Source of the DNA: Thiomicrorhabdus sp. Milos-T2
GTDB lineage: Bacteria; Pseudomonadota; Gammaproteobacteria; Thiomicrospirales; Thiomicrospiraceae
DNA length: 64,000 nt
Assembly: GCF_000702325.1 (NCBI RefSeq)
Contig: NZ_KL370891.1
Span: forward strand, 2,080,250-2,144,249
Direction of reading: 5' to 3'
The notes under the pieces were generated by a model that searched no databases, was not told the DNA's origin, and worked only from the letters and a program-made list of their open reading frames with translations. A program made the translations under genes and the position numbers. Below are positions 1,933 to 62,224 of the stretch, piece after piece. Within the stretch, counting starts at the first letter, position 1. Every line of letters starts with the position of its first letter.

Positions 1933-2658
1933 TTAGAGCAAATGCCTACCACCATTTAATTGCAGGCTAGTGCCCGTAGTGTATGGGCTATTCATTAAAT
2001 ACTGTACTGCTTGCCAAACCACTTCATAACCCGGTTCTATCGGCAAAGCAGCCTGCGCTAAACGCTTATGTTTATAGTCCTCGTCATCTCCTTGATTAAA
2101 TTTAATTAACGCCGGGGCAATATCATTAACTTTTATTTCTGGAGCAAACTTTTTAGCAAACCCCATACTTAAATTTTGTAAGGCCGCCTTACTCGATAAG
2201 TAAGCAATATGAGTCTCTTGCACCTTGTTTACGCTGTAATCTGATAAAGAAATAATATCTTTTAAAGGGCTGCTTGAAGCTTGTAAAAGAGGCTGTAAAA
2301 GTTGATTAAGATAGTTAGGCGTTTCTACATGCACTTTAAATAGTTCTGCATATTTTTCAGAAAGGGGTGGCGCCTGTTCATCATTAAGCCAGAGTGATGC
2401 ATTATGAATCATTAATCTTAAGCTTTTACAATGCGTCTTAACCTGTTCTACCAGGCCTGGTAACTCTGTTAAATCATTAAAGTCGGCTTGAATACCAATC
2501 GCACCCAATGCAATCAATTCATCCACTTCAGCACGGTGACTACGATAGGTAAAAACAATCGGAAAATCGGTATTGTGTATAAACTGACGAACTAAAAAAG
2601 CCCCTATTCTCTGCCCAGCTCCGGTAATGAATACGGCATCTTCATATTTATTGGTCAT
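1933..2658 (-). CDS. folM: FolM-like dihydromonapterin/dihydrofolate reductase (SDR)
   Basis: Short-chain dehydrogenase that in the FolM family reduces dihydromonapterin (weakly dihydrofolate) with NADPH. Counting from an upstream ATG at 2667, it shows the glycine-rich TGAGQRIG at residues 15-22, the HNAS variant of the NNAG motif at 88-91, and YLSSK (YxxxK) at 156-160. I prefer the ATG at 2658 because an AAGG ribosome binding site lies about 9 bases upstream of it but only 2 bases from the ATG at 2667. The folate gene folE2 lies 3 kb away on the other strand. The palindrome TACCAGGCCTGGTA is embedded at 2449-2462 and read as part of LPGLV. Assignment to FolM rather than a general SDR is by overall resemblance. 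Confidence 0.8.
   Translation of the reverse strand: MTNKYEDAVFITGAGQRIGAFLVRQFIHNTDFPIVFTYRSHRAEVDELIALGAIGIQADFNDLTELPGLVEQVKTHCKSLRLMIHNASLWLNDEQAPPLSEKYAELFKVHVETPNYLNQLLQPLLQASSSPLKDIISLSDYSVNKVQETHIAYLSSKAALQNLSMGFAKKFAPEIKVNDIAPALIKFNQGDDEDYKHKRLAQAALPIEPGYEVVWQAVQYLMNSPYTTGTSLQLNGGRHLL
2449..2462. repeat. CCAGGCCTGG palindrome (in folM)
   Basis: Perfect 14-bp TACCAGGCCTGGTA inside the coding region. It is one of 13 perfect 10-bp cores in the window. Confidence 0.95.
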
Positions 2659-2888
2659 TTTAAACATCCTTGAATTCGCATATTAAGTGCAGCTTCATTT
2701 TTGCAGTTATTTTTACATCTCATAACTTGTACAATTAAATACCCTATACCGTTTGTTATTCTTCTTAAGGGCACACTCACAACTTTTCCTTACCCTGCAT
2801 TAAAGCTTTTAATATTATATAATACTAAGTTATCAAAATATTTTTGCATATCAATGCATATCAAACTAAACCTAGAGAAACAGAATAA

Positions 2889-4241
2889 ATGAAAAATCGT
2901 ACATTCGATGTTGTGATTGTTGGCGGCGGAATTTCCGGAAGTGCCCTAACCTATATGCTTTCAAAGTATACCAATGTCGGTTCTGTTGCCATGTTAGAAA
3001 AATACGGTTCTTTAGCACCGTTAAATTCACATGCACGCTCTAATAGCCAAACCTTACACTGCGGTGATATTGAAACTAACTACACGCTTGAAAAGGCTAA
3101 ATTAGTTAAACAGCAAGCCAATATGATTGTGCACTATGCTGACCAAGTTGAAAAAAATGACTTCCTGTACAAGTTTCCCAAAATGATTCTAGCCGTCGGT
3201 GACGAAGAGTGTGAAAGACTTGAAAAACGTCATCATGAATTTGCCGAAGGCTTTCCCTATATGGAACTTTGGGATGCTGAACGTATTGTGGAAGTAGAAC
3301 CTGCGGTAGCTTTAATTGATGGTAAACCGCGTCCAGAAAAAATTATTGCTTCTGGCTGTACCGATGAATATTCAGCGGTAAATTACGGCAATCTATCAAA
3401 ATCTTTCATTAATAGCGCTCGTAACAGCAATACAGAAATTAATGTCTCTCTAAGTTGTGAAGTTGAAAAAATTGCAAAGTTTGATGACCACTATGAACTA
3501 ACCACTCCTCAAGGGACGTTTTTAGCTAAATTTGTAGTGGTTTCTGCAGGGGCTCACAGTTTATTACTGGCTAACCAACTTGGGCACGGTATGGATATGT
3601 CTATATTACCGATGGGCGGAAGTTTTTATTACGTCCCTAAAATGCTAAACGGTAAAGTTTACACTATGCAAAATGACAAACTCCCTTTTGCCGCTTTGCA
3701 TGGTGATCCTGACTTAATTGAACTTAACAAAACTCGCTTAGGGCCAACGGCTTTAGTTCTGCCTAAATTAGAGCGTTATACCGGTGGGACTTATTGGGAT
3801 TTCTGGAAGAGCTTAAAGCTAGATTTTAAAGTGATTAAAGTATTCTGGGACTTAATGAAAGACAGCACGATTCGTAACTATATCTTTAGAAATTTTATGT
3901 TTGAAGTTCCTAAACTACGTCAAAAACTGTTTGCTAAAGATGCCAGTAAAATTATTCCAAGCTTAAAGCCAGAAGATTTAGAGTACGCGCAAGGAATTGG
4001 TGGTTTACGCCCTCAAGTTATTGATAAAACTACCATGGAGCTTAAACTAGGTGAAGCGAGCATTGTGCCTGAAAATGAGAACCTAATCTTTAATATGACC
4101 CCTTCTCCAGGGGCAACGACTTGTTTAGGAAATGCTTATCGTGATGCACAAATTATTGCAGAAGGTTTAGGTATTGAGCTTGATAGAGATGCGGTTGTTA
4201 ACGACTTACTTGGCGGCACTGATATTCCACGTTCAGCTTAA
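2889..4241 (+). CDS. mqo: Malate:quinone oxidoreductase-like FAD enzyme
   Basis: Probably oxidises malate to oxaloacetate and passes electrons to quinone at the inner membrane face, replacing NAD-linked malate dehydrogenase in the TCA cycle. At 450 residues it matches the shorter epsilonproteobacterial-type Mqo. The FAD-binding VVIVGGGISGSAL lies at residues 8-20, and the family-like stretch NSQTLHCGDIETNYT is near 53. A C-terminal GGLRPQVID and TPSPGATTCLG complete the FAD-dependent fold. No close operon partner; the COG0523 gene follows after 54 bp. The stop codon lies inside a 14-nt tandem repeat (4231-4272). Alternative: another FAD-dependent 2-hydroxyacid oxidase of the same superfamily. 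Confidence 0.82.
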   Translation: MKNRTFDVVIVGGGISGSALTYMLSKYTNVGSVAMLEKYGSLAPLNSHARSNSQTLHCGDIETNYTLEKAKLVKQQANMIVHYADQVEKNDFLYKFPKMILAVGDEECERLEKRHHEFAEGFPYMELWDAERIVEVEPAVALIDGKPRPEKIIASGCTDEYSAVNYGNLSKSFINSARNSNTEINVSLSCEVEKIAKFDDHYELTTPQGTFLAKFVVVSAGAHSLLLANQLGHGMDMSILPMGGSFYYVPKMLNGKVYTMQNDKLPFAALHGDPDLIELNKTRLGPTALVLPKLERYTGGTYWDFWKSLKLDFKVIKVFWDLMKDSTIRNYIFRNFMFEVPKLRQKLFAKDASKIIPSLKPEDLEYAQGIGGLRPQVIDKTTMELKLGEASIVPENENLIFNMTPSPGATTCLGNAYRDAQIIAEGLGIELDRDAVVNDLLGGTDIPRSA

Positions 4242-4272
4242 ATAATTCAACTTAAATAGTTCAACTTAAATA
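4231..4272 (+). repeat. 14-nt tandem repeat spanning mqo stop
   Basis: Three units of RTTCARCTTAAATA at 4231-4244, 4245-4258 and 4259-4272. The first unit encodes the last codons of mqo and contains its TAA, so the repeat was copied outward from the stop codon. Confidence 0.85.
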
Positions 4273-4295
4273 ATTAACCCATTCGACTCGAAACC

Positions 4296-5408
4296 ATGAC
4301 AAAAAATCCACTTCCTGTTCACCTTGTGACTGGCCTGCTAGGAAGTGGTAAAACCACCTGTTTAAAACACCTCATTCAACAAAAACCATCTAGTGAAAAC
4401 TGGTTAATTCTCATCAATGAATTTGGGGAGGTTGACATTGATGCAAGCCAACTTTCCAGCCTAGTTGCAGACAACGCCACTCAGTCACAATCCCTTAATA
4501 TTCAAGCCGTATCGGGTGGTTGCATTTGCTGTACCGCTCAATTAGGTTTAGTAAACACCCTCAACCAGGTGCTAAGCCAAGCTCACCAAAGTATTAACCG
4601 AATTTGGATTGAACCAACAGGCTTAGGCCACCCTGCAAAAATTATAGATGCATTACAAAATAGCGCTTTTGTACAACCATTAGATTTACAAAAAATAAGC
4701 TGCATTATTACGCCACAACAATTAACGCCACAACGCTGGCAAAAATCGGCTGTTATGCGTGATTTAGTGCAGTTGGCCGACTGTATTATTTTAAATAAAA
4801 CCGATTTAAGTAGTGAGGATGAACAATCCCAAGCATTAAAGATATTAACAGAGTGCTACCCTCCAAAAAATGAAGTCATTAAAACCCAACACAGTGCTGT
4901 AGAAATTGATTGTTTATTACAATCTCGCAAACCAAAAGGCTTAACTCTTTTATCTCAAAGCACAACGAATACTCTTCATTTTGTACATGAGGAAGAATCT
5001 AGTCACACAATACAAACAGCCAATATACAAAAAAATTACACCTCTGCCATCCCAAACACCTTACAGTGCTTTCTAAGCACCAATAAAACATTAACCCCCC
5101 TTAATATGGGATGGATTTGGGCACCTAGCGTTCAATTTAAACGCACAGAGATTAAAACCTTTTTTGAAGCTATTGCGCCAAAACTCATACGCGCCAAAGG
5201 CATTTTAAAAACAGGCAATGAATGGCAGTTAATTAATTGGAGCGAAGGTCAATTGAGTTTTGAAGACATTGCTTGGCGAGAAGATAGTCGCTTAGAATGC
5301 TTGTTTGATGATCAATATGGGGAGGCTAGTTGTACCGCTAGTTTTACAGCTAGTTTTACGGCTAATCAACTCGAAAAACAGTTAATCAAAACCATACATA
5401 CTTATTGA
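4296..5408 (+). CDS. COG0523 (CobW/YjiA/ZigA-type) metal-chaperone GTPase
   Basis: P-loop GTPase thought to deliver metal, often Zn, to client proteins. The Walker A is GLLGSGKT (residues 13-20), NEFGEVDID follows at 41-49, the metal-binding CxCC is GGCICC (74-79), and NKTD is the guanine-specificity motif. A CobW C-terminal domain follows. It lies upstream of folE2, a pairing typical of zinc-limitation responses, but a 220-bp MITE separates the two and I saw no Zur box. Near the C-terminus a 12-nt in-frame repeat gives TASFTASFTAN. The stop TGA takes its last two bases from the MITE; without the insertion the frame would end one base later as TAA, with the same protein. No strong ribosome binding site. 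Confidence 0.88.
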   Translation: MTKNPLPVHLVTGLLGSGKTTCLKHLIQQKPSSENWLILINEFGEVDIDASQLSSLVADNATQSQSLNIQAVSGGCICCTAQLGLVNTLNQVLSQAHQSINRIWIEPTGLGHPAKIIDALQNSAFVQPLDLQKISCIITPQQLTPQRWQKSAVMRDLVQLADCIILNKTDLSSEDEQSQALKILTECYPPKNEVIKTQHSAVEIDCLLQSRKPKGLTLLSQSTTNTLHFVHEEESSHTIQTANIQKNYTSAIPNTLQCFLSTNKTLTPLNMGWIWAPSVQFKRTEIKTFFEAIAPKLIRAKGILKTGNEWQLINWSEGQLSFEDIAWREDSRLECLFDDQYGEASCTASFTASFTANQLEKQLIKTIHTY

Positions 5409-5626
5409 GACCTTTGCACGAGAGTATGCACGAGTAAAAATGGTTAAAATTTGTCTGATTTTTGTTGTACCCCAAGGGCACTTCCGTTGGGCGACAACTA
5501 GCGAATAGCTAGCTATTCCCTGCGTTTTCCGCCGCAAACGAAGAACTCGACGCCCGAAGGGGTAAGTCGAGAATCAGGCAAATTTTACCTCATTTTTCTT
5601 TCGCACCTATCTCGTGCAAAGGTCTC
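5407..5626 (-). repeat. Family A MITE with two inserted modules (220 bp)
   Basis: Same ends and central GAATAGCTAGCTATTC as the 159-bp copies, in the opposite orientation to copy 1. It is 61 bp longer through two modules: one containing GTACCCCAAGGGCAC (about 5468-5495) and one containing CTCGACGCCCGAAGGGG (about 5536-5571). A 5-bp duplication TTATT (5402-5406, 5627-5631) flanks it. The remaining gap to folE2 (5632-5855) is AT-rich and shows nothing else I can name. Confidence 0.9.
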
Positions 5627-5855
5627 TTATTAATCCATTTTGTTGACCCATCGATTAAGGTAAGTGACATTACTTAACCAGGTAATTTTACGACCTAAAA
5701 TTCTTAAATTATTTTCCGACAGTCACACTATTAACCAAGCATTTTAGTCAATTATTTGATAAAATTTCCAGTCACTTTTAATAATTTCAGTTAGTTACAG
5801 ATTTTTCGCTTAAATTAGCTTATCTCAAAACTCACTCAAAGACGAAGGAAATTGC

Positions 5856-6806
5856 ATGACAAAGCACATGCCCGATATCGCTTGCCAGCCTCATCACGGT
5901 CCACAAGGTAAACTCAACTGGGTAGGAATGAGCGGAATAGAGCTCCCAATTCTTATTCAACAAGGTTTAGACAAACAACAAATTGTTAGACTTTCTTCTA
6001 AAGCTCAAGCTTATGTAAACTTGAATGACCCTGAAAGCAAGGGTATTCACATGTCTCGTTTATATCTGCATTTAGATCAAATGGCCAGTAATGAAGTGCT
6101 TACCCCCAATCGCGTTAAAGCTATTTTAGAAGCATTTATAGAATCGCACCAAGGGTTAAGTACTCAAGCATTTGTTGAATTTAAGTTTGACTACTATGAG
6201 CGTCGCAACTCTTTATTAAGCGACAATAGTGGTTGGAAGCACTACCCTGCGACACTACGTGGTGAAATTCGTAACGGTCAGTTTAGTTGTGAATTATCTA
6301 TTGAAGTCCCTTACTCTTCAACCTGCCCATGCTCTGCGGCATTGTCACGCCAGTTAATTCAAGAAGCGTTTGAAAAGCAATTTGCCGGACAAAAAATGGA
6401 TTATCAAACGATTTTAGAATGGCTAGGTACTCCAGAAGGTATTTGCGCAACGCCGCATAGCCAGCGTTCTTATGCTCAGGTAAAAGTTAAAGTCTCTGAA
6501 GCCGATGAACTAGTCTATTCAAACATTATTAACCACATTGAAAACGCTCTAAAAACCCCTGTTCAAGCAGTGGTAAAACGTGAAGATGAACAAGAATTTG
6601 CACGTTTAAATGCAGCTAATTTAATGTTTTGTGAAGATGCGAGTCGTCGTTTACAACAAGCGTTTGAAAGTAATGCTGACTACCTAGATTTCTGGATTAG
6701 AATTAATCACCTAGAAAGCCTGCATCCGCATGATGCGGTTTCTGTTGTAACTAAAGGTATTGAGAATGGCTATATTGATGATCCAAACCTAATGGATCCA
6801 ATGTAA
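5856..6806 (+). CDS. folE2: GTP cyclohydrolase FolE2
   Basis: Converts GTP to 7,8-dihydroneopterin triphosphate, the first step of folate synthesis, without the strict Zn requirement of FolE1. The 316-residue length is normal for this family. Visible motifs: TCPCSAALS with the conserved Cys157 and Cys159, PHSQRSYAQV (His201), and ESLHPHDAVS near the C-terminus. An AAGGAA ribosome binding site lies just upstream of the ATG. No second GTP cyclohydrolase is seen in the window. The neighbouring COG0523 GTPase and the folM-like gene suggest a local pterin/metal theme. A rho-independent terminator follows at 6870. Confidence 0.95.
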   Translation: MTKHMPDIACQPHHGPQGKLNWVGMSGIELPILIQQGLDKQQIVRLSSKAQAYVNLNDPESKGIHMSRLYLHLDQMASNEVLTPNRVKAILEAFIESHQGLSTQAFVEFKFDYYERRNSLLSDNSGWKHYPATLRGEIRNGQFSCELSIEVPYSSTCPCSAALSRQLIQEAFEKQFAGQKMDYQTILEWLGTPEGICATPHSQRSYAQVKVKVSEADELVYSNIINHIENALKTPVQAVVKREDEQEFARLNAANLMFCEDASRRLQQAFESNADYLDFWIRINHLESLHPHDAVSVVTKGIENGYIDDPNLMDPM

Positions 6807-6921: not shown

Positions 6922-6935
6922 TACCAGGCCTGGTA
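6922..6935. repeat. CCAGGCCTGG palindrome (intergenic)
   Basis: Perfect TACCAGGCCTGGTA between the folE2 terminator and the convergent 7043 gene. Confidence 0.95.
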
Positions 6936-8198: not shown

Positions 8199-9323
8199 TT
8201 AACTTCTATCCAAATAGTGAGAATTTTTATGCTCATACACATCAAAGATAGTGATGGCCATAGCAGCGATTACCGGCCCAAAAAATAGACCAATAACACC
8301 AAAATGAATTAACCCTGCAAAAGTTGATAATACCGTTATTAGCGTGTGATTAGCCACTTTTAACCCCTCTCCAGCCACACCTAAACTTTGCGTAAGACGG
8401 TTAATCATTAAGGGACGCATAATATTGTCAATAACAAACCCCGTGATGACTATCCCCCAAAATGCAATCACGACAGCGGTCAGGTATTCGCCTTGAATAA
8501 GCGCGTATATCACAATGGGAATCCACACTAAGGCTGCGCCCACAACGGGAATAAAGGAGGTCACGGCAATTGCCATACCGATAAACATACCTGGAAGCCC
8601 TAATAGCCAAGAAACAAGAGCAAATGACACCCCTTGCATAAGCGCAATACCCAAGACGCTTAAGGTTAAAACGGTAGATAATGAGGAAAAGCGATTCATA
8701 ATCATTCGATCATAATAATTATCCAGTGGTGATAGCACTTTTAAATGATGAGCAATCGCATGACCATCACGATAAAAGAAAAATAGCGCAAAAACGGATA
8801 AACCAATAAAAGTAATAAATGATGAGGTCGTACCCAAAATACCTTCTAATAAAAAGACCGTTGCTTGCTGAACAAAACTTAGAATTTTTTGTGAGTTTTC
8901 CTTAAGTTGAACCAAGGCACTTTGTTGTGCACTTTCGCCAATAGGCAAGTAACTTAAAACACTTTGATTCAGCTTGGTTAAACTTTCTGCATCCTGGGCA
9001 TTTAACCAGGCCTGGGCATTGCTATAGAAGCCCCCTACCTGCAAACTGACTTCAACCAATAAATAGGTAACCGGAGCAATAACGCCTACAAACACGAGCA
9101 AACTCATTGCTGAAGCGGCTGCAGTAGGCGACTGTTTACAATGCGGCAATAACATTTGATAACCCTTGTAACTCGCCGTTGCTAAAATCATGGCAAAAAA
9201 CAACGCCTCTAAAAATGGCGAAAACAACCAAATGATTCCGACCAAAGCCAAAATCAATAAAATGATTAAAAAACCTTCCTCATAAGGACCATTGTCACGC
9301 ATAATAAACCCCATATAGCTCAC
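8199..9323 (-). CDS. AI-2E family (TqsA/PerM-like) membrane transporter
   Basis: A 374-residue protein with about eight hydrophobic segments and the AI-2E exporter pattern: two N-terminal helices, a polar periplasmic stretch (about 85-155), then a helix-rich C-terminal half with FFYRDG, GLPGMFIGMAIAVTSFIPVVG-type sequence and NIMRPLMI. Members move signalling molecules or ions outward; the substrate cannot be told from sequence. Translation probably starts at GTG 9323, since an AAGGA lies 8 bases upstream; an ATG at 9314 is the alternative. An altered CCAGGCCTGG flank occurs inside at 9006-9015. Confidence 0.85.
   Translation of the reverse strand: MSYMGFIMRDNGPYEEGFLIILLILALVGIIWLFSPFLEALFFAMILATASYKGYQMLLPHCKQSPTAAASAMSLLVFVGVIAPVTYLLVEVSLQVGGFYSNAQAWLNAQDAESLTKLNQSVLSYLPIGESAQQSALVQLKENSQKILSFVQQATVFLLEGILGTTSSFITFIGLSVFALFFFYRDGHAIAHHLKVLSPLDNYYDRMIMNRFSSLSTVLTLSVLGIALMQGVSFALVSWLLGLPGMFIGMAIAVTSFIPVVGAALVWIPIVIYALIQGEYLTAVVIAFWGIVITGFVIDNIMRPLMINRLTQSLGVAGEGLKVANHTLITVLSTFAGLIHFGVIGLFFGPVIAAMAITIFDVYEHKNSHYLDRS
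9006..9015. repeat. CCAGGCCTGG palindrome (in AI-2E gene)
   Basis: Perfect 10-bp core; flanks are AA and GC rather than TA and TA. Confidence 0.9.
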
Positions 9324-10780: not shown

Positions 10781-10792
10781 ACCAGGCCTGGT
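10781..10792. repeat. CCAGGCCTGG palindrome (intergenic)
   Basis: ACCAGGCCTGGT between ppnN and the helicase gene. Confidence 0.93.
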
Positions 10793-12068: not shown

Positions 12069-12082
12069 TACCAGGCCTGGTA
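12069..12082. repeat. CCAGGCCTGG palindrome (convergent gene gap)
   Basis: TACCAGGCCTGGTA lies 8 bases after the helicase stop, in a 46-bp gap between convergent genes, where it could act as a transcription-ending hairpin. Confidence 0.93.
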
Positions 12083-21784: not shown

Positions 21785-21796
21785 ACCAGGCCTGGT
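21785..21796. repeat. CCAGGCCTGG palindrome (intergenic)
   Basis: ACCAGGCCTGGT downstream of yidD, in the 240-bp gap before ppk. The rest of the gap is AT-rich with short near-repeats such as GGTCTTATAG / GGTCTTAGTT. Confidence 0.92.
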
Positions 21797-21988: not shown

Positions 21989-24136
21989 ATGCCAGAAACT
22001 CAAAATTCCCAAACTCCTAAAAACGCTGAAATCAGCTCTGAGCTCCCCAAATACATTAATCGTGAGCGTAGCTTGCTAGAATTTAACCGTAGAGTGTTAG
22101 CACAAGCGACCAAAGCAGAAATTCCATTACTGGAACGCGTTAAATATCTATGTATTTCCAGTAGTAATATGGACGAATTTTTTGAGGTTCGCTTAGCCGG
22201 ATTAATGGAGCTAGCAAAAGACTCTAATGCCTTAACTCAGCCAGACCAACAGCCCGCTCAACAAGTTGTAGACTGTCTATTAAAGGCCTCACATGAGATT
22301 GTTGAAGAACAATATCACACCTTAAACAACATTCTTATTCCAGCACTTGAAAAAGAAAATATTCGTTTTGTCCGCCGTAACCACTGGACGGAACAACACA
22401 GAGAGTGGATCAGTAAGTTTTTTATTGACCAACTTCAACCAGTACTTAGCCCAGTGGGATTAGATCCTTCACACCCTTTTCCAAAAGTACTCAACAAAAC
22501 TTTAAACTTTATTGTTTCCTTAGAAGGTAAAGACGCCTTTGGTCGTTCAAATGGTTTAGCGATAGTTCCCGTTCCACGCTCATTACCGCGTTTAGTCAAG
22601 CTTCCTGGTGACGCGACTGATGGGGAAAACGACTTTATATTCCTATCATCCATATTACACGCGAATGTCTCTCGACTTTTCCCTGGCATGACTGTAACGG
22701 GTTGTTATCAATTTAGAGTTACTCGCAACACAAATCTATTTATTGATGAAGAAGAAGTGGATGACCTCTTAAGCGCCTTACGAGGAGAACTCTCAGGTCG
22801 TCAGTATGGTGGTGCCATTCGTTTAGAAGTTGCCGACAATTGCCCACAACACCTCATTGATTATTTACTTGACCGTTTTAATTTACATAAAGAGTCGCTT
22901 TATAAAGTTAATGGCCCAGTGAATTTACACCGTTTAGATGCAGTACCTGGCATGGCGAATCGCCCAGACTTATTGTTTAAACCTTACTCTCAAAAACCAT
23001 TAACCACTAAAAAACGTCCGTCTAAAAACGCCTTTAAAATTTTTACGCGCCATAAAGAATCCGAAAAATTATTTGATAAAATCAAACAAAAAGACATCTT
23101 ATTGCACCACCCATATGATTCTTTCGCCCCTGTTATAGATTTTTTAAAACAAGCTTCCGTTGACCCTGATGTATTGGCCATTCGCATGACCTTATATCGT
23201 ACGGGTGAAGATTCAGAGATTATTAAAGCACTCGAGAAAGCCGCTCAAAATGGTAAAGAAGTTACTGCGGTGGTTGAACTGAGAGCGCGATTTGATGAAG
23301 ACAATAATATTTTACAAGCTACTCGCTTACAAGATGCGGGTGTGCATGTTGTATACGGTGTAGTTGGTTATAAAACGCACGCTAAAATGATATTAGTGTT
23401 GCGCCGTGAAGACGACCGTATTCGTTATTACACCCATATGGGAACAGGTAACTACCATCATATTACAACGCGATTCTATTCAGACTTTGGCTTATTTACC
23501 GCCAACCCAATCATTGGTCGAGATGCGTCTAAAATTTTTCAGCAGCTCACCAGTTTAGGCGATACTAAAGATTTAGAATTGCTTCTACAATCCCCCTTTA
23601 CTTTAAAGAGTGGCATGATTTCAAAAATTGAGCGCGAAGCCAATAATGCCAAACAAGGAAAGCCTGCACGAATTATTGCCAAAATGAATGGTTTAGAAGA
23701 GAAAGGCATGATTGACGCCCTGTACAAAGCTTCTCAAGCCGGTGTAAAAATTGACCTTATTGTGCGTGGAATTTGTAGTTTACGACCTGGTATACCAGGC
23801 CTGTCAGAAAACATCACCGTTACCTCAATTATTGGTCGTTTCTTAGAACATCACCGAATTTATTATTTTGAAAACAACGGTAGTAAACCAGAACTATTCT
23901 GCTCAAGTGCTGATTGGATGCGACGCAACTTATTATCTAGAGTAGAAACTTGTTTTCCAATATTAGATGATACCTGCTTTCAGCAAGTTTATACCGAAGG
24001 TTTAGCCATGTATTTACAAGACAACACCGGTGCTTGGATTCTCCAGCCCGATGGAAGTTACCAGGCTAAAACAGCAGACCATGATGCGCCTTATAATGCT
24101 CAATCGTTATTAATTGAAAAATACAGTGCCCAATAA
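21989..24136 (+). CDS. ppk: Polyphosphate kinase
   Basis: Reversibly polymerises ATP gamma-phosphate into polyphosphate. 715 residues, normal for PPK1. It opens with the N-terminal domain signature YINRERSLLEFNRRVL and SSNMDEFFEVRLAGL. His464 in GYKTHAKM matches the autophosphorylated histidine, and THMGTGNYHH, LRPGIPGLSENI and SSADWMRRN follow in family order. ppx comes 178 bp downstream on the same strand, a classic ppk-ppx arrangement, although a small hairpin relic of family A sits between them. Confidence 0.96.
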   Translation: MPETQNSQTPKNAEISSELPKYINRERSLLEFNRRVLAQATKAEIPLLERVKYLCISSSNMDEFFEVRLAGLMELAKDSNALTQPDQQPAQQVVDCLLKASHEIVEEQYHTLNNILIPALEKENIRFVRRNHWTEQHREWISKFFIDQLQPVLSPVGLDPSHPFPKVLNKTLNFIVSLEGKDAFGRSNGLAIVPVPRSLPRLVKLPGDATDGENDFIFLSSILHANVSRLFPGMTVTGCYQFRVTRNTNLFIDEEEVDDLLSALRGELSGRQYGGAIRLEVADNCPQHLIDYLLDRFNLHKESLYKVNGPVNLHRLDAVPGMANRPDLLFKPYSQKPLTTKKRPSKNAFKIFTRHKESEKLFDKIKQKDILLHHPYDSFAPVIDFLKQASVDPDVLAIRMTLYRTGEDSEIIKALEKAAQNGKEVTAVVELRARFDEDNNILQATRLQDAGVHVVYGVVGYKTHAKMILVLRREDDRIRYYTHMGTGNYHHITTRFYSDFGLFTANPIIGRDASKIFQQLTSLGDTKDLELLLQSPFTLKSGMISKIEREANNAKQGKPARIIAKMNGLEEKGMIDALYKASQAGVKIDLIVRGICSLRPGIPGLSENITVTSIIGRFLEHHRIYYFENNGSKPELFCSSADWMRRNLLSRVETCFPILDDTCFQQVYTEGLAMYLQDNTGAWILQPDGSYQAKTADHDAPYNAQSLLIEKYSAQ

Positions 24137-25887: not shown

Positions 25888-25909
25888 AAGCTACCAGGCC
25901 TGGTAGCTT
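25888..25909. terminator. CCAGGCCTGG palindrome acting as a likely bidirectional terminator
   Basis: A perfect 22-bp palindrome, AAGCTACCAGG paired with CCTGGTAGCTT, followed by TTCTT. It lies in a 72-bp gap between convergent genes. The other copies vary in flanks, so a terminator role is inferred for this site only. Confidence 0.65.
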
Positions 25910-25919: not shown

Positions 25920-27014
25920 TTAATAAACATCTAGTTGCAAACGTTTAGTTTGCTTAAGTGTTTTCCAGAAAGCATTTGCCTCTTCCTCATCCATATTTCC
26001 CTGCTGTTGAAAGATTTGTATAAACACTTCTTTAACCGATACCGCTAGCGTGGTTTGGCTACCGCATATATAAATTTCAGCTTGGTTATGAATTAACGTC
26101 CAAAGCTTTTCTGACTGCTCCAATAAACGTTGGGTCACATACTCTTTTTTAGCTTGATCACGAGAAAAGGCATAAAAAGCTTCTACTAAGCCTTGATTTT
26201 GCCATTCTTGAATTTCCTCACAAAAAAGACAATTTGTCTTTTGATGAGTCTCTCCAAAAAACAGCAGTGCTTCACCTATTGTTTGGCCGTTTGATTTTTG
26301 CAAATTTCTGTATTGCATAAAACTTATAAAGGGTGCCAACCCCGTACCCGCACCAATCATTACAATGGGAATATTAGCTTCTTGAGGAAGTTTAAATGTA
26401 GGGTTAGATTTTAACTCACCAGAAACAACCAGGCCTGGTTGTGCCTCCTGTAAAAAATAACTAGCGACTCCAAATCGTTGACGCCCTAAGTTTAAATACT
26501 CCACCGCTTTATATAAAATTGACACTTCATTTTTACCCGCATCGGCAGAAGCAATCGAGTAATAACGTGGTGCTAATGGCGATAAATAGTTTAAGAACTC
26601 TACGCCCTTTTCGGCTAACTGAGGATAAAGTTCTAACAAATCCAAGATATCTCGCCCATAGGCATAATCCATCATAGCCTGCCTATCAGACCAATCACCC
26701 AAACCTAATTGACGTTGAAGTTTATTTAAAATAGCCGGATTTAATTGAGTTAACTCTAGATGACTTTGTAAAGCTTGTTTAACCGTTACCAGGCCTGCAC
26801 GTCTTAATTCAAGGAGTTCATCACCCTGTAAATTAAGTGCGGCTAATAAGGCTTGAACCATTAATGAGGTATTTTGTGGTTGAACGGTTAACCAATCACC
26901 AGGCTGGTAATTAAAGCCTTCACTATCATCTAATGCTGAGAACGTTAGATAAAAGATAGATTTTTCTTTGGAATGAGGCGTTATACAGGTGTTTTGTTTA
27001 ACAATGAGGTTCAT
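25920..27014 (-). CDS. CysJ-like FAD/NADPH reductase lacking a flavodoxin domain
   Basis: 364 residues matching the FAD-binding plus NADPH-binding half of the sulfite reductase flavoprotein. Visible: GDWLTVQPQN, the FAD motif RYYSIAS, the NADPH motif GAGTGLAPFISFMQYR, FFGETHQKTNCLF, YICGSQ and a C-terminal LDVY aromatic end. The N-terminal FMN (flavodoxin) domain is missing, so electrons must go to a separate carrier or directly to an acceptor. No hemoprotein cysI is adjacent. Role unassigned: assimilatory sulfite reduction or ferredoxin/flavodoxin reduction are both possible. Contains a perfect palindrome at 26427-26440. Confidence 0.83.
   Translation of the reverse strand: MNLIVKQNTCITPHSKEKSIFYLTFSALDDSEGFNYQPGDWLTVQPQNTSLMVQALLAALNLQGDELLELRRAGLVTVKQALQSHLELTQLNPAILNKLQRQLGLGDWSDRQAMMDYAYGRDILDLLELYPQLAEKGVEFLNYLSPLAPRYYSIASADAGKNEVSILYKAVEYLNLGRQRFGVASYFLQEAQPGLVVSGELKSNPTFKLPQEANIPIVMIGAGTGLAPFISFMQYRNLQKSNGQTIGEALLFFGETHQKTNCLFCEEIQEWQNQGLVEAFYAFSRDQAKKEYVTQRLLEQSEKLWTLIHNQAEIYICGSQTTLAVSVKEVFIQIFQQQGNMDEEEANAFWKTLKQTKRLQLDVY
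26427..26440. repeat. CCAGGCCTGG palindrome (in CysJ-like gene)
   Basis: AACCAGGCCTGGTT, perfect over 14 bp. A 9-bp partial copy (CCAGGCCTG) lies in the same gene at 26789-26797. Confidence 0.93.
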
Positions 27015-31402: not shown

Positions 31403-32160
31403 ATTGCCTTAAGCATTAGCGAAATTCCAACTAAAATCGTAATCACTTCAAAGCTACGTTTAACTAATTGATTGCCTTTTACTATGGCAAAATGCGCCCC
31501 TAGATAACCACCAATTAACGAACCTAAAATGAGTGCTGGCAACCAGCTCCACTCGATATTACCTAAAAATCCTAAAGTAATTGCCCCAGAACCATTCCAA
31601 AAAATCCCTACTAATATTAATGTGTAGGCCACTGCAGCTTTATAGTCCAAACCAAACCAACGTACTAGCCATAAGGTCACGAACAATCCGGTACCAGAGG
31701 TTAATGAACCATTTAACCCTCCAATTAAAAACAGAACTAAACCACCAACTACCAGGCCTGGTAAGTCTCTATTTTTTGTATCTAATGTTTGTCCTAAACT
31801 TGGTTTAAACCAAGAGTACAAACCTAAACCTAAAGTTAATACGCCCAATAGACCTTGAGAAATTCTGTCATCTACTTGCAGAATAATACTTGCGCCAACC
31901 ACTACTCCAGGCAAACCCGTTGCTAAAATGTAAACCGAAAACTTCCAATCAAATTCTGATGATTTAAGATGCCGTGCTGTTGCTCCTAACCCTAAAAAGA
32001 CACTCGCGACTTTATGAGTTGCTAAGGCAGTACCAAAAGGCAAGCCTAAAAATAGAAGCGCAGGCAATTGAAGTAAACCTGCTCCACCACCTGCTAATGC
32101 TGAGAATAAATTCGCTACTAGCGAAATAATAAATAAGATTAGTTGTTCAAATATGTCCAT
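31396..32160 (-). CDS. TSUP (TauE/SafE) family anion exporter
   Basis: 254 residues with about seven or eight hydrophobic segments. The TauE/SafE layout is recognisable: GGGAGLLQLPALLFLGLPFG at residues 24-43, LPGVVVGASIIL, and GGLNGSLTSGTGLFVTLWLV in the second half. Relatives export sulfite, sulfoacetate or similar sulfur-containing anions, which would fit a sulfur oxidiser; the substrate is not shown by the sequence. A perfect palindrome TACCAGGCCTGGTA lies inside at 31750-31763, read as the LPGLVV stretch. Stop codon sits in a tandem repeat. Confidence 0.87.
   Translation of the reverse strand: MDIFEQLILFIISLVANLFSALAGGGAGLLQLPALLFLGLPFGTALATHKVASVFLGLGATARHLKSSEFDWKFSVYILATGLPGVVVGASIILQVDDRISQGLLGVLTLGLGLYSWFKPSLGQTLDTKNRDLPGLVVGGLVLFLIGGLNGSLTSGTGLFVTLWLVRWFGLDYKAAVAYTLILVGIFWNGSGAITLGFLGNIEWSWLPALILGSLIGGYLGAHFAIVKGNQLVKRSFEVITILVGISLMLKAIS
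31750..31763. repeat. CCAGGCCTGG palindrome (in TSUP gene)
   Basis: Perfect TACCAGGCCTGGTA within the coding region, encoding part of DLPGLVV. Confidence 0.94.
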
Positions 32161-33123: not shown

Positions 33124-34121
<998 letters not shown>

Positions 34122-34635: not shown

Positions 34636-34653
34636 CCTACCAGGCCTGGTAGG
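34636..34653. repeat. CCAGGCCTGG palindrome upstream of yajQ
   Basis: An 18-bp perfect palindrome CCTACCAGGCCTGGTAGG in the leader of the minus-strand gene, where it may affect transcription or translation. Confidence 0.93.
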
Positions 34654-35088: not shown

Positions 35089-36294
35089 ATGCCTAATAAA
35101 ACTGAATTTCACCCAAACGTATCTCAAGTCGCTTCAGCCATTCAACCTTTTCACGTTATGAAAATATTAGCGGAAGCCAAAGCACTAGAAGCCAAGGGTG
35201 TGGAGGTCATTCATATGGAAATTGGCGAACCAGACTTCCCTTCTTTAAATTGTATACATCAAGCTGCAGACCAAGCTATGCAACAAGGCTTAACTCATTA
35301 CACACCCACTATGGGTTTGCCTGCTTTAAGAGAAAAATTAGCGAATTTTTATGCTGATTTTTATCACGCTAAAGTTAATTCACAAAATATTATGATAACG
35401 CCAGGGTCATCAACCGCATTGCAATTAGTCTTAACAGCGCTATTAAATCCCAAAGATAAAGTCTTACTAGCAGACCCTGCTTATCCTTGTAATCGTCAAT
35501 TTGTAAACTTACTGCACGGCGAACTACTTGCCATTCCGGTTTCACATGAAACACAATATCAGCTTAATTTAGAGTTACTTAAAGCCAACTGGCAACCTGG
35601 AATTAAAGTGGTTATGGTCGCTTCCCCAGCAAATCCAACGGGAACGGTGATAGAACAGTCTGAACTGATTGCCATGGCTAATTTTTTAGCTGAAAAAAAT
35701 GTTTATTTTATTGTAGACGAAATTTACCAAGGCCTGGTTTATGAGCGCCCTGCTGAAAGCATTTTAGCCAATCAGCACCTCCCCCAAAACGTCATTGTTA
35801 TTAACTCTTTTTCTAAATTTTTTGGTATGACCGGCTGGCGTTTAGGCTGGACAGTCGCTCCAGACCCTTTAATGCCTATTTTAGATAGACTTGGACAGAA
35901 TCTATTTTTAGCCGCCCCTACCCCCTCTCAATATGGTGCTTTAAGAGTACTCGACAAAGATGCCCTGCAAGCTTTAGAAGCTCGCCGCTCGGTTTTTGAA
36001 CAGCGTCGAAATGTGTTAATTAACGCTATGCAACAAGCAGGCTTCACCCCCAAACTGATTCCTGATGGGGCTTTTTACCTTTATTGGGATATTTCAGAAT
36101 TTAGTGATAATAGTGCACAGTTTTGTGCTGAGCTTTTACAGCAGACGGGCGTGGCTATTACACCAGGCAAAGACTTTGGATACTTTCAAGCCAATCAACA
36201 TGTTCGCCTAGCGTACACTTGTGATGAACCTCTATTAAAAGCGGCCGTTAAAAAAATTAGCGAATTTTGTAAATCGATTAATCAAAGTATTTAA
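35089..36294 (+). CDS. Class I/II PLP-dependent aminotransferase
   Basis: 401 residues from ATG 35089; an in-frame TTG at 35074 is less likely. Fold-type I motifs: GEPDFPS, THYTPTMGLPALREKLA, the ASPANPTGTV motif, VDEIYQGLVYE, and the PLP lysine in SFSKFFGMTGWRLGW (Lys243 from this ATG). C-terminal RLAYTC holds the carboxylate-binding Arg. Resembles the broad aspartate/alanine aminotransferase group; the amino acid is not determined. Stands alone between two family A elements. Confidence 0.88.
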   Translation: MPNKTEFHPNVSQVASAIQPFHVMKILAEAKALEAKGVEVIHMEIGEPDFPSLNCIHQAADQAMQQGLTHYTPTMGLPALREKLANFYADFYHAKVNSQNIMITPGSSTALQLVLTALLNPKDKVLLADPAYPCNRQFVNLLHGELLAIPVSHETQYQLNLELLKANWQPGIKVVMVASPANPTGTVIEQSELIAMANFLAEKNVYFIVDEIYQGLVYERPAESILANQHLPQNVIVINSFSKFFGMTGWRLGWTVAPDPLMPILDRLGQNLFLAAPTPSQYGALRVLDKDALQALEARRSVFEQRRNVLINAMQQAGFTPKLIPDGAFYLYWDISEFSDNSAQFCAELLQQTGVAITPGKDFGYFQANQHVRLAYTCDEPLLKAAVKKISEFCKSINQSI

Positions 36295-40695: not shown

Positions 40696-42030
40696 ATGGA
40701 AAACATTAGCAGCATTCTTTCTACCGCGAGCAGTTTGGCCTGGGGGCCTGCCATGCTCGTATTGTTATTAGGTACAGGCATATATCTAACGATTCGTCTT
40801 AAGTTCTTGCCACTTCGTCATCTTTTTTATGCTTTTAGCTTACTTTGGAAAAGCCGAAAATCAAAAGAAGAAGGTGACATTACTCCATTCAGCGCCTTAA
40901 TGACCGCCATGGCCGCCACGGTAGGTACCGGTAATATTGCCGGTGTTGCTGCGGCTTTATTTATTGGTGGGCCTGGCGCAATTTTTTGGATGTGGATGAC
41001 CGCTTTAGTTGGTATGGCTACTAAATACAGTGAAGCAGTGTTGGCCGTCAAATATCGTGAAGTGGATGACGAAGGTTGCCATGTTGGTGGCCCCATGTAT
41101 TACATTAAAAACGGGATGGGTGAAAAGTGGAAACCTCTCGGTTTTGCATTTGCCTTATTTGGAACCATCGCCGCATTTGGTATTGGTAATATGGTTCAAG
41201 CCAATGCTGTCGCTGGAGCCATGCAAAGTGCCTTTGATATAAATAATCAACTAACAGGCCTGGTATTAATGGTATTGGTTGGATTAGTGTTGTTTGGTGG
41301 TATTAAACGTATTGCTCATACAGCCACCGCATTAGTGCCGATTATGGCAGTACTTTATATCGGTTTTTCACTTTATATCTTAATTATGCATGCCGATGCT
41401 CTTCCTGGTGCTTTTAATACCATTATTAAAAGTGCCTTTACAGGCAGTGCTGCGGCTGGTGGTTTTGCAGGAGCAAGCATTATCCTAGCCATTCAATTTG
41501 GTGTGGCACGAGGTGTATTTTCCAATGAAGCCGGTTTAGGAACGGCGCCAATTGCTCACGCGGCAGCCAAAACGAATAATCCGGTAGAGCAAGGTCATAT
41601 TGCTATGCTTGGAACATTTATTGACACCATTATTCTTTGTACCATGACTGCATTAGTCATTATGGTAACGGGGGTTTGGACTAGTGGCGAAACGGGTTCG
41701 CCGTTAACCGCTCTAGCCTTTACTACCGGATTAGGTTCTGATCTTGGTGCAGTCGTTGTTGCCGTTGGTTTAGCGATCTTTGCTTTTACGACCTTAGTGG
41801 GCTGGAGTTATTACGGTGAAAAATGTGCCGAATATATTGCAGGAACAAAAGTCATTACTGGCTATCGCGTGTTATGGGTTATTGCTGTTTTTGCGGGTGC
41901 CGCGCTGTCTGATTACTTTAATACGGTATTAATATTAGCGGACGTTTTAAATGCGCTTATGGCCATTCCAAACCTAATTGCCTTATTGGTACTTGCCCCC
42001 GTAATCGTTAAATTAACCCGAGATAATTAA
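40696..42030 (+). CDS. Alanine/glycine:cation symporter (AGCS family)
   Basis: Sodium-coupled amino acid importer of the inner membrane. 444 residues from ATG 40696, with a TAGGA upstream; a longer frame from 40534 runs through the MITE and is not plausible. About 10-11 hydrophobic segments. Family signatures: TPFSALMTAMAATVGTGNIAGVAAA, GPGAIFWMWMTALVGMATKYSEA and GVFSNEAGLGTAPIAHAAAKT. Single gene followed by a hairpin. Could supply alanine or glycine; sdaA (serine breakdown) lies 2 kb downstream but is not linked by transcription. Confidence 0.94.
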   Translation: MENISSILSTASSLAWGPAMLVLLLGTGIYLTIRLKFLPLRHLFYAFSLLWKSRKSKEEGDITPFSALMTAMAATVGTGNIAGVAAALFIGGPGAIFWMWMTALVGMATKYSEAVLAVKYREVDDEGCHVGGPMYYIKNGMGEKWKPLGFAFALFGTIAAFGIGNMVQANAVAGAMQSAFDINNQLTGLVLMVLVGLVLFGGIKRIAHTATALVPIMAVLYIGFSLYILIMHADALPGAFNTIIKSAFTGSAAAGGFAGASIILAIQFGVARGVFSNEAGLGTAPIAHAAAKTNNPVEQGHIAMLGTFIDTIILCTMTALVIMVTGVWTSGETGSPLTALAFTTGLGSDLGAVVVAVGLAIFAFTTLVGWSYYGEKCAEYIAGTKVITGYRVLWVIAVFAGAALSDYFNTVLILADVLNALMAIPNLIALLVLAPVIVKLTRDN

Positions 42031-48037: not shown

Positions 48038-49249
48038 TTAATTATTTTCAGAAATAGAGTTTAACAAAGCGATTGCTTGTTGATACTTAGATGAACTTGG
48101 AAATGTTTGTTGCTGAGAATCGGTAATAACAGTCAGTGAATTATCGTCACATTCAAAACCTTGATTTTCACCCACCTGGTTAGCACAAATCATGTCTAAA
48201 TTTTTACGCTTTAATTTGTTTTTGGCGTACTCAATGACGTTTTGAGTTTCTGCGGCAAACCCTACTACAAATGGTTTGTCTGCTTGTTGAGCCACCCACG
48301 CAACTATGTCAGGATTTTTAATCAATTCAAGCGTCATATTTTCATTATCAGCCTGCTTTTTGATTTTTTGCTCAGCAATCTCTGCCACTCTAAAATCTGC
48401 AACCGCTGCCGCACTAATAAAACAGCTGTTTTGAGCATACTCTTTCTTAACAGCCTCAAACATATCTAATGCAGAACGCACATTAATACGCTTTACTTTA
48501 TCAAGTGTTGCTAATTGAACTGGCCCAGCAATTAAGGTGACATTAGCTCCCGCTCTAGCCGCTATTTCAGCAATGGCAAAACCCATTTTTCCTGAACTTC
48601 TATTGCCAATATAACGCACTGGATCAATATTCTCGTAGGTTGGCCCTGCGGTAATGAGTAGAGATTTACCATTCCAAAATTGTTTTAAATTTAACCAGGC
48701 CTGGTAGTTTTGTTTTTGTTGTTGATCAACATTCATTACCGCATCAAATATCTCTTGCGGTTCTGGCATTCTGCCCTCACCTATCTCACCACAAGCTTGC
48801 TCTCCTGAACCCGGTTGCAACAAAGTCCAACCACGCTGTTTTAAGATAGAAACATTCTCTTGGGTAGCTGCATTGCTCCACATTAAACGGTTCATAGCGG
48901 GAGCTAACACAATAGGTTTTTCGGTTGCTAAAATCAAAGTCGTTAACAAATCGTCTGCGCGTCCCATTCTAAACTTGGCCAAGGTTTCTGCCGAAGCTGG
49001 CGCCACCACAATCACATCTGCCCAACGAGCTAATTCAATATGCCCCATCCCTGCTTCTTGATTGGCATCAAACAAACTGTCTCTTACTGGGTTGCCAGAT
49101 AAAGCTTGAAACGATAAAGGCTGAATAAACTCCTTAGCACCCGTCGTCATCACCACCTGAACCTCATGCCCTGCCTTAATAAACAGACGAGTCAGTTCTA
49201 AAGATTTATAGGCTGCAATGCCGCCGGTAACACCTATAAGTATTTTCAT
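48038..49249 (-). CDS. coaBC: Bifunctional phosphopantothenoylcysteine decarboxylase/synthetase
   Basis: Two coenzyme A steps: ligation of cysteine to phosphopantothenate (CoaB) and decarboxylation (CoaC). 403 residues from the ATG at 49249 (MKILIGVTGGIAAYKSLEL); a longer frame from 49294 adds an unlikely leader. The CoaC flavodomain covers about 1-180, with APAMNRLMW; CoaB covers about 200-400, with LLITAGPTYENIDPVRYIGNRSSGKMG and the KxKK region. A CCAGGCCTGG palindrome lies at the domain junction and is read as YQAWLN. Confidence 0.96.
   Translation of the reverse strand: MKILIGVTGGIAAYKSLELTRLFIKAGHEVQVVMTTGAKEFIQPLSFQALSGNPVRDSLFDANQEAGMGHIELARWADVIVVAPASAETLAKFRMGRADDLLTTLILATEKPIVLAPAMNRLMWSNAATQENVSILKQRGWTLLQPGSGEQACGEIGEGRMPEPQEIFDAVMNVDQQQKQNYQAWLNLKQFWNGKSLLITAGPTYENIDPVRYIGNRSSGKMGFAIAEIAARAGANVTLIAGPVQLATLDKVKRINVRSALDMFEAVKKEYAQNSCFISAAAVADFRVAEIAEQKIKKQADNENMTLELIKNPDIVAWVAQQADKPFVVGFAAETQNVIEYAKNKLKRKNLDMICANQVGENQGFECDDNSLTVITDSQQQTFPSSSKYQQAIALLNSISENN
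48696..48705. repeat. CCAGGCCTGG palindrome (in coaBC)
   Basis: Perfect core with flanks AA and TA, located in the linker between the two enzyme domains. Confidence 0.93.
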
Positions 49250-53543: not shown

Positions 53544-53559
53544 TTACCAGGCCTGGTAA
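53544..53559. repeat. CCAGGCCTGG palindrome between divergent genes
   Basis: TTACCAGGCCTGGTAA, a perfect 16-bp palindrome in the 140-bp region between the divergent thioesterase and radC genes. A terminator role is impossible to exclude but the site suits a binding protein better. Confidence 0.93.
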
Positions 53560-57515: not shown

Positions 57516-57541
57516 ATGCCTAAAAAATACCTAAAACTTAT

Positions 57542-60964: not shown

Positions 60965-60987
60965 TTTATCTCCGTTATCAGCTTAAT

Positions 60988-61021
60988 TAGAGACCTTTCC
61001 CACAAATGGCGTTCAGAGGTC
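60988..61021 (+). repeat. 34-bp miniature family A element
   Basis: GAGACCTTTCCC ... AGAGGTCTC, only the ends remaining; 30 bp upstream of the small gene at 60746-60964. Confidence 0.65.
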
Positions 61022-61106
61022 TCAATGAGTCAATCTCTATTTAATTTAACGGCAGGAAAGCACAAATATTGATAAAGCACCTTTAAAAACCGTTATTAAT
61101 CATTAA

Positions 61107-61265
61107 GAGACCTTTGCACGAGAGTATGCGCGAGTAAAAATGGTTAAAATTCCCCCGATTTTTGTTGAAAAACTTGCGAATAGCTAGCTATTCCCTGCGT
61201 TTTCCGCCGCAATCAGGAAAATTTTCCCTCATTTTTCTTTCGCACCTATCTCGTGCAAAGGTCTC
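61107..61265 (-). repeat. Family A MITE, basic 159-bp copy
   Basis: Opposite orientation to copy 1. Exactly 159 bp with perfect ends and 5-bp duplication ATTAA (61102-61106, 61266-61270). The gap between 60964 and mutM is otherwise AT-rich without a gene. Confidence 0.93.
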
Positions 61266-61378
61266 ATTAAACAAATTTTATGCCTAAAACCACAACCAAA
61301 CTTTGACAGATTTCTAACGCTTTTTTCACGCTTTGATTACAATATGAGTTTCTTATATAAATTCAATCACTCAAAACT

Positions 61379-62224
61379 ATGCCTGAATTACCCGAAGTAG
61401 AAACCACTCGTAAAGGAATAACCCCCAAAGCGAACAAACAAACGATTACTGATTTTATTGTTCGTAATCCACAATTACGCTGGCCAATCGATTTAAGCCT
61501 CTCAAACAAGTTACCAGGCCTGGTAATTCAGTCCATTGATCGAAGAGGAAAATACCTTCTGCTAAAGACTAAAGCAGGAACTTTACTGATACATTTAGGA
61601 ATGTCTGGCAATTTAAGAATACTGCCTAAAGAAACGGCTTTACTTAAACATGACCATGTTGATATTGGATTAGCGAATGGCTTTGTGGTTCGCTTAAATG
61701 ATCCACGGCGTTTTGGCGCAGTTTTATGGCATGATGCTAAAGAGGGTGACATTAGCAACCATAAACTAATCGGTAAACTCGGGCCAGAACCCTTATCGGA
61801 TGACTTTAATGGTGAATACCTTTATCAAAAATCTCGTCATCGAAAAGTTGCCATTAAAAGCTTTGTAATGAATAGCCATATTGTGGTTGGAGCCGGCAAT
61901 ATTTACGCCAATGAATCGTTGTTTATGAGCAAAATCCATCCACAAAAACCAGCCAGTAAACTGACAAAAAAGCAATGCACGCTTTTAGCTGAAAACATTA
62001 AAAAGGTTTTAGCCGCAGCCATTGAACAAGGCGGAACCACCTTGAAAGACTTTTTATCACCCGACGGTAAGCCAGGCTATTTTGTACAGAAATTAAATGT
62101 CTATGACCAAGCAGGCAAGCCCTGCACTGTTTGTGGTACAACAATAGAACGTATGATTCTGAATCAACGTGCTAGCTATTTTTGCCCAAACTGTCAGAAA
62201 AAGAAACGTACCCAATCCTCATGA
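61379..62224 (+). CDS. mutM: Formamidopyrimidine-DNA glycosylase
   Basis: Removes oxidised purines such as 8-oxoguanine and nicks the abasic site. 281 residues. Catalytic Pro2-Glu3 in MPELPEVETTRKGI, the LIHLGMSGNLR loop, VGAGNIYANESLF, and the C-terminal zinc finger CTVCGTTIERMILNQRASYF with CPNC. The perfect 16-bp palindrome TTACCAGGCCTGGTAA lies inside, read as LPGLV. Together with nfo and dut the window holds three base excision functions at scattered sites. Confidence 0.97.
   Translation: MPELPEVETTRKGITPKANKQTITDFIVRNPQLRWPIDLSLSNKLPGLVIQSIDRRGKYLLLKTKAGTLLIHLGMSGNLRILPKETALLKHDHVDIGLANGFVVRLNDPRRFGAVLWHDAKEGDISNHKLIGKLGPEPLSDDFNGEYLYQKSRHRKVAIKSFVMNSHIVVGAGNIYANESLFMSKIHPQKPASKLTKKQCTLLAENIKKVLAAAIEQGGTTLKDFLSPDGKPGYFVQKLNVYDQAGKPCTVCGTTIERMILNQRASYFCPNCQKKKRTQSS
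61511..61526. repeat. CCAGGCCTGG palindrome (in mutM)
   Basis: TTACCAGGCCTGGTAA encodes KLPGLVI residues of MutM. Confidence 0.95.

Follow-up and report, generated by a model that had tools for sequence, protein, structure and literature searches.

To our knowledge, the reason why the highly iterated palindrome HIP1 fills cyanobacterial genomes is still unsettled; a chromosome-organising or regulatory role has previously been suggested for it. Here we describe a word of comparable habit, the palindrome CCAGGCCTGG, in a 64,000-nucleotide stretch of Thiomicrorhabdus sp. Milos-T2 (the window; contig NZ_KL370891.1, positions 2,080,250 to 2,144,249; G+C 38.8%) and in the family of sulfur-oxidising bacteria to which this organism belongs, taken here as Thiomicrospiraceae. 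The description of the word as HIP-like is safe; we tentatively read it as a lineage-wide tag of self DNA with a two-fold symmetric reader, which most likely guides DNA uptake during natural transformation.

The closest described systems are compared here. HIP1 and the alternate HIPs of cyanobacteria are, like the present word, short, G+C-rich, genome-wide palindromes that are patchy between relatives, with alternative words, with deviations at the outer positions and with palindromic extensions in some genomes (PMC4390886). The extensions listed for HIP1 span 1-3 bases a side (PMC4390886), whereas the flank preferences found here are symmetric, reach about 6 bp and recur between genera; the words also differ, GCGATCGC in Cyanobacteria as against CAGGCCTG here, where the named many-copy hosts are Gammaproteobacteria, and unlike HIP1 the present word shows dialects around a constant core and no tracking methyltransferase among three families. 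The DNA uptake sequences (DUS) of Neisseriaceae resemble it as a word spread across the family, with dialects that vary around an invariant core, that is absent in some members, occupies permissive intergenic positions and forms terminator-associated pairs; they are read by the minor pilin ComP, and their uptake bias has been measured (PMC3630211). The DUS unit is directional, whereas a full palindrome is the rule here, and DUS number 943-5,918 per genome against 236-1,173 cores here (PMC3630211). Dialect patterns of a similar kind are on record for DUS (PMC3630211) and for the two types of uptake signal sequence (USS) of Pasteurellaceae, which share with our word an origin by substitution and conserved flanks about a helical turn away, but whose core is non-palindromic, whose flanking segments lie on the 3' side and whose uptake was shown experimentally (PMC1626085).

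The window holds 13 perfect CCAGGCCTGG cores, all where a preliminary description of this DNA had placed them except that one begins at 48695 instead of 48696, together with six copies carrying one mismatch; dinucleotide shuffles of the window gave 0.73 places with 0-1 mismatch against the 19 observed. The full TACCAGGCCTGGTA form is present at 8 of the 13. Comparison with the open reading frames (ORFs) bore out the earlier division into six cores in genes and seven between them; PGLV is read at four of the six coding sites and AQAW or YQAW at the other two. The sites are as follows (window positions, entered without strand; ORF strands in brackets; "kept" and "absent" refer to aligned relatives, numbered G).

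2451..2460, core in TACCAGGCCTGGTA, inside ORF 1933-2667 (-), read as PGLV; kept in G006 and G008
6924..6933, core, full 14-mer, in a convergent gap; no alignment in relatives
9006..9015, core, in ORF 8199-9323 (-), read as AQAW; kept in G006 and G012, one change in G008
10782..10791, core, in a co-directional gap; word also nearby in G008 and G012, not in G006
12071..12080, core, full 14-mer, in a convergent gap; kept in G006 and G012, absent in G008
21786..21795, core, in a co-directional gap upstream of ppk; no alignment in relatives
25894..25903, core in a perfect 22-bp palindrome, in a convergent gap; kept in G006 and G012
26429..26438, core, in ORF 25920-27014 (-), read as PGLV; absent in G006, G008 and G012
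31752..31761, core, in ORF 31396-32160 (-), read as PGLV; kept in G006, G008 and G012, one change in G029
34640..34649, core, full 14-mer, in a divergent gap; kept in G006 and G008
48695..48704, core, in ORF 48038-49294 (-), read as YQAW; kept in G006, G008 and G012
53547..53556, core, full 14-mer, in a divergent gap; kept in G008 and G012, absent in G006
61514..61523, core, in ORF 61379-62224 (+), read as PGLV; kept in G008 and G012
965..974, near copy with one outer mismatch
23795..23804, near copy with one outer mismatch, inside ppk
26789..26798, near copy with one outer mismatch, inside ORF 25920-27014
33351..33360, near copy with one outer mismatch, coding
35728..35737, near copy with one mismatch, coding
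41254..41263, near copy with one outer mismatch, coding

The over-representation first noted in the window extends to the whole source genome (G000; 2,655,367 bases, two contigs), which contains 612 copies of CCAGGCCTGG and none of the same word read backwards, used as a control. In the G000 sample, made up of the window and 20 sampled stretches (464 kb together), CCAGGCCTGG ranks first among 10-mer palindromes, with 110 copies where base composition predicts 0.08; these comprise 59 coding and 51 intergenic sites, and the copies are not traceable to one gene family. Nor is the frequency near a Markov expectation: an order-2 model predicts 0.14 occurrences of ACCAGGCCTGG against 205 counted on both strands. 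A maximal-order model predicts 106.8 for the CCAGGCCTGG 10-mer, because the 9-mers inside it are equally enriched, and hence provides no test of the core. A palindrome that is short, genome-wide, both genic and intergenic, and replaced by alternative words in relatives fairly deserves the HIP1-like label given to it earlier.

The core common to the family is the 8-bp CAGGCCTG. Flank profiles of 15 genome sets, ranging from 38 to 56% in G+C, revealed recurrent preferences on both sides in most sets (A/T at -6, a pyrimidine at -4, A at -2 and a dialect base at -1); the preference spans about 6 bp past the core per side, giving a symmetric footprint of about 20 bp, and at distances over about 12 bp from the dyad nothing is clearly conserved. 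G000 and most sets, including the named loci of H. halophilus (28 sites) and Thiomicrospira sp. WB1 (26 sites), bait sites excluded, have C as the dialect base; A predominates in G004 (56%) and G026 (46%) and G in G021 (69%), while G027 shows both A and C, each of these four sets comprising 12-21 sites. With 6 sites from G013 and 2 from T. arctica, these two sets are too small to judge; G013 has 466 cores yet just 15 copies of CCAGGCCTGG. G007, with zero CCAGGCCTGG, carries the alternative palindrome ACCGGCCGGT, 74 times in 200 kb against 0.06 expected, with symmetric T runs and A runs farther out on both sides (L051-L060, L256-L258). CCGGCCGG occurs 1-4 times in four other samples and not at all in that of G000, and no comparable palindrome was seen in 200-kb samples of G010, G011 and G031, which have few copies of the core.

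The half-site ACCAGG occurs 410 times on both strands, against 116 expected, and at least 190 of these lie within the 95 perfect copies of the palindrome ACCAGGCCTGGT in the 464 kb; two-fold recognition is the natural reading of these counts. A further 41 sites differ from ACCAGGCCTGGT at one position, 35 of them at the outer two positions of a half and 6 at the inner four.

Counts of CAGGCCTG divide the 62 genomes sampled from the family (sampling at order rank gives the same 62) into two groups, 32 with 236-1173 copies and 30 with 0-74, and we set the line between high-count and low-count genomes at 200. Some low-count genomes are a few-fold over their own control word (74 against 20 in G003, 62 against 12 in G048), and ACCAGGCCTGGT alone ranges from 0 to 718 copies across the family. 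Among 369 genomes drawn from Gammaproteobacteria, ANCAGGCCTGNT reached 608 in G000 and 522 in G053, of the same family, with no more than 22 in any of the 365 genomes outside it. In a 16-mer scan of named genomes, among the matches listed, 51 of 70 stretches came from Hydrogenovibrio, Thiomicrospira or Thiomicrorhabdus, one from a Piscirickettsiaceae bin and 18 from 18 different genomes, one each. Thirty-six viral stretches carry one TACCAGGCCTGGTA each; a link to viruses was rejected, the single copies being taken for chance. Among the titles listed for full-text matches to CCAGGCCTGG, none concerned a bacterial genome word, and the titles and abstract openings listed for over-represented palindromes and these three genera contained no report of it.

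On a ppk tree of 30 members of the genus (G015 and G019 omitted), the high/low label requires 5 changes, against a mean of 10.2 in shuffles and with none of 500 shuffles giving as few; within the genus, the label is inherited in blocks. Two low-count genomes, G003 and G016, are nested in a supported clade whose other four members are high-count, which points to loss of the word. The place of G001 on the tree is meaningless, because it is represented there by a fragment with a very long branch. The polyphosphate kinase matches of that genome (G001:C1:2052686-2054759) fall in three pieces, and the gene looks broken. As with DUS and USS, an abundant family-wide word with dialects consistent with phylogeny is found, its presence being judged on the tree and its dialects by sample only.

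Once formed, sites are held in place. Across five relatives whose nucleotide identity to G000 is 72-76%, 34 of the 43 G000 sites that could be aligned remain sites in register (11/15 in G006, 7/10 in G008, 10/11 in G012, 2/3 in G029 and 4/4 in G001), whereas control 10-mers of equal G+C count, treated by equal rules, are kept in 62 of 1562 cases and all 10-mers in 5-9%. The 43 cases represent 19 distinct sites, 17 of them kept in at least one relative; allowing sites a 6-column shift leaves the figure at 34/43, and the reverse direction gives 34/42. The origin of coding sites was addressed by querying 56 of them against sampled low-count stretches, of which 7 could be aligned, in 27 alignments (5 of these, all of one site, are at only 28-37% identity and perhaps involve paralogues). 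No alignment contained a gap inside the site, and identity was 0.38 within the site against 0.59 around it; at 31752, PGLV in G000 stands opposite xGYL in five low-count relatives at 75-84% identity. An exception is the 9006 site, where low-count proteins already read AQAW or AQSW. Gap-free sites of lowered identity indicate that, within genes, the word originates by substitution, as for DUS and USS, and is forced on the encoded proteins, a result that covers the 7 alignable of 56 coding sites. In one HI0933-like flavoprotein gene of G000, three palindromes (C1:37740, 37947 and 38042; L031:17740-18051) are spaced by 207 and 95, and the same spacings recur at G001:C1:158491, 158698 and 158793, presumably in the same gene.

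Such strong maintenance, at the price of tolerated amino-acid changes, is also what would be seen if a chromosome-organising or regulatory homodimer bound the palindrome at hundreds of places under site-by-site selection. This is the main rival to a self-DNA tag, and the perfect dyad symmetry and symmetric footprint of about 20 bp suit it; we regard it as rather unlikely. The first 100 sites of the large contig have a mean spacing of 4.8 kb, a coefficient of variation of 1.11 and a largest gap of 36 kb; their spacing fits an exponential scaled to its own mean (Kolmogorov-Smirnov p 0.98), ruling out regular spacing for these sites, and the dispersion in 10-kb bins is 0.98. Across 20 sampled stretches (1-9 sites per 20 kb) there was no obvious trend in density across the GC-skew sign change, by inspection without a statistical test. 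A binding protein of this kind would also have to be reconciled with the lack of the word in 30 of 62 family members, and a change of dialect would require many sites to move together. Operators of the Noc and KorB type of ParB-family proteins have a G+C-rich palindrome between T-rich and A-rich arms, resembling the present word; they differ in that no extra ParB paralogue tracks the word here, TIGR00180 giving a single match each in G000, G006, G008 and G029, and a ParB paralogue was rejected as the reader on the basis of these four genomes. The nucleoid or segregation-protein site proposed in the preliminary description keeps some probability, but loses by the random spacing, the patchy occurrence and the lack of an extra ParB paralogue that tracks the word.

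The distribution of sites between genes and gaps bears on a further alternative, a family of dispersed terminators or of repetitive extragenic palindromic (REP) or miniature inverted-repeat transposable element (MITE)-like repeats. With a simple ORF caller, by which 85% of the G000 sample is coding, densities per kb are 0.15 in ORFs, 0.64 in co-directional gaps, 0.68 in divergent gaps and 1.36 in convergent gaps; convergent gaps are also richer in sites than ORFs in G001, G012 and G029, but no site lies in the divergent gaps of G001 (3.7 kb) or in the convergent gaps of G006 (0.4 kb). At 126 intergenic sites pooled from six genomes, the palindromes are longer than their own base frequencies predict, and a T run is found on one strand at 70 of the 126; the corresponding figures are 47 of 151 for coding sites and 22% for randomly chosen intergenic positions in G000. 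The flank preference of the word itself accounts for part of this surplus of T. The enrichment in convergent gaps and the T runs suit terminators, and the longer palindromes and T runs at gap sites suggest that some of these sites probably have a second role in termination. A terminator or repeat family is disfavoured as the main cause and very improbable: 59 of 110 sites lie in ORFs instead of mostly between genes, no repeat unit longer than the binding word is clearly shared past about 12 bp from the dyad, and coding sites show little pairing extension past the core above expectation and are gap-free in origin. A search of the window against Rfam yielded no match.

A mobile element also uses the word. 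A 1.3-kb (approximate) element with ends CACTAGTGTCCGGAATAA and a 384-aa transposase, matching DDE_Tnp_1 and DUF4372 and taken by us to be of the insertion sequence (IS) IS4 type, is present in three copies in the G000 sample, all three lying exactly inside the palindrome with CCAGGCCTGG on both sides, a 10-bp target duplication.

L034:12965-14282, copy of the IS4-type element
L048:10142-11459, copy of the IS4-type element
L049:12443-13760, copy of the IS4-type element

These insertions raise the possibility that the palindrome is abundant as the landing site of a transposable element. We consider this most improbable, as one insertion adds at most one copy and cannot yield hundreds of sites held between species; presumably, at one added word each, insertions account for a small part of the 612. 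When 779 core pairs were scanned for inward inverted ends, 6 passed, namely the three copies and three others whose similarity seems confined to the flanks of the word itself; three more core pairs at the same 1308-bp spacing in G000 are probably further copies of the element. Similar ends, with up to 3 mismatches, occur once each in G031, G055 and G059 (the latter two high-count) and do not border the palindrome, and the insertion junction was found in no viral contig. The element thus seems to exploit the palindrome.

A fourth alternative follows the published model for HIP1, attributed to Elhai, in which DNA modification and biased mismatch repair create and protect a palindrome that is itself functionless (PMC4390886). 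The genome-wide pattern, the alternative words in relatives and the deviations chiefly at outer positions, as for HIP1 (PMC4390886), all speak for such a ratchet. The methyltransferase correlation that underlies the published model is, however, absent here among the three families searched: C5 methyltransferases (PF00145) passed the cut-off in 7 of the 15 high-count and 8 of the 17 low-count members of the genus, N6/N4 methyltransferases (PF01555) in 4 of 15 and 5 of 17, and D12 methyltransferases (PF02086) in 6 of 32 and 3 of 30 across the family. In six high-count members of the genus, no match to any of the three exceeded the cut-off. In G000 itself the C5 match is sub-threshold, there is none to N6/N4 enzymes, and the single D12 match, barely over the cut-off, covers 51 of 253 positions. 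A word-specific methyltransferase was accordingly rejected within these three families, other methyltransferase families lying outside the search, and the link to methylation or restriction suggested in the preliminary description found no support among them. The flanks, reaching about 6 bp past the 8-bp core on each side, are also more than we would expect of a methyltransferase. Since three families were searched, the result runs against the modification-plus-repair model (PMC4390886) and only weakens it; we hold the ratchet to be improbable.

We prefer a self-DNA tag used in uptake because dialects around a constant core, absence from some lineages, origin by substitution, permissive placement and doubling as terminators are all features reported for DUS or USS. 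Whereas the abundance, core, flanks and dialects of the word, its inheritance with losses, the gap-free origin of coding sites, their persistence and their random spacing are observed, the reader, its two-fold symmetry and uptake as the biased step are inferred. A protein, probably a homodimer or two copies in two-fold symmetry, would read about 20 bp, roughly WNYNANCAGGCCTGNTNRNW; during natural transformation, tagged fragments would be preferentially taken up or recombined, so that tag-bearing alleles would keep replacing untagged ones, a form of drive. The word would then build up wherever protein and promoter constraints permit and persist once formed; a change of reader might let the dialect drift, and its loss might let the word decay in that lineage. 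A dimeric reader has a precedent of sorts, as Simonsiella muelleri carries 1294 DUS in overlapping dyad-symmetric pairs, for which dimer-based recognition was suggested, such pairs being described for Simonsiella and Kingella, and inverted DUS pairs are linked to terminators (PMC3630211).

Several observations weigh against uptake. Apart from such paired arrangements, DUS and USS are generally non-palindromic (PMC1939737), and the ACCAGG counts reveal no directional, non-palindromic unit here. One-off copies of DUS outnumber perfect ones (PMC3630211), the opposite of the 41 and 95 counted for our word. The word of G007 lacks the CTG common to all DUS dialects, and two sets, G004 (A or G at -2) and the small G013 set, deviate from the common flank profile. 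Selection on a chromosome-binding site would equally give the strong maintenance in place. ComEC, of the DNA-uptake channel, does not discriminate between the groups, being present in 31 of 32 high-count genomes and in 25 of 30 low-count ones (Fisher p 0.099); five of the six genomes without it are low-count and the sixth, high-count, is 82% complete, and ComEC presence as the cause of the two count groups was dismissed as not significant. A crude prepilin pattern scan over sampled stretches of nine genomes returned one uninformative ORF, in low-count G007, and no receptor, and the literature listings for these bacteria included no competence or uptake experiment. As a lead only, the half-site of the Kingella DUS shares GCCTG with the present word.

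It is conceivable, if still doubtful, that the word belongs to a third class of self-DNA tag, palindromic and independent of the other two, with a homodimeric reader, no relation to methylation, a two-fold word of 20 bp, dialects that mark lineages and a use as a transposon landing site. As an uptake tag, it would add a palindromic kind to DUS and USS and imply natural transformation in sulfur-oxidising chemoautotrophs; as a nucleoid site, its dialects and losses would make function testable by comparison. On either account, a HIP1-like phenomenon is now at hand in another class, where some members are in culture, dozens of species have been sequenced, high-count and low-count genomes are found among close relatives and several dialects exist.

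Other repeats were met in the same material. The window contains a dispersed repeat, probably MITE-like, in which ends GAGACCTTTGCACGA are inverted around a GAATAGCTAGCTATTC centre; its TAGCTAGCTA occurs 36 times in the 464 kb of G000.

267, 5503, 13104, 34953, 36492, 40550 and 61178, centres of the MITE-like repeat in the window
339, 5407, 5612, 13221, 35025, 36420, 36564, 40459, 61107 and 61251, ends of the MITE-like repeat in the window

The G001 sample (L091-L097) has a C-rich word around CCCCCCGCGGG, 37 times in 140 kb with fixed flanks, which is probably a repeat array, and about 96 occurrences of AGGCAGCTAAG and the words next to it in 200 kb of the G031 sample (L081-L090) probably reflect a repeat array or a repetitive gene.

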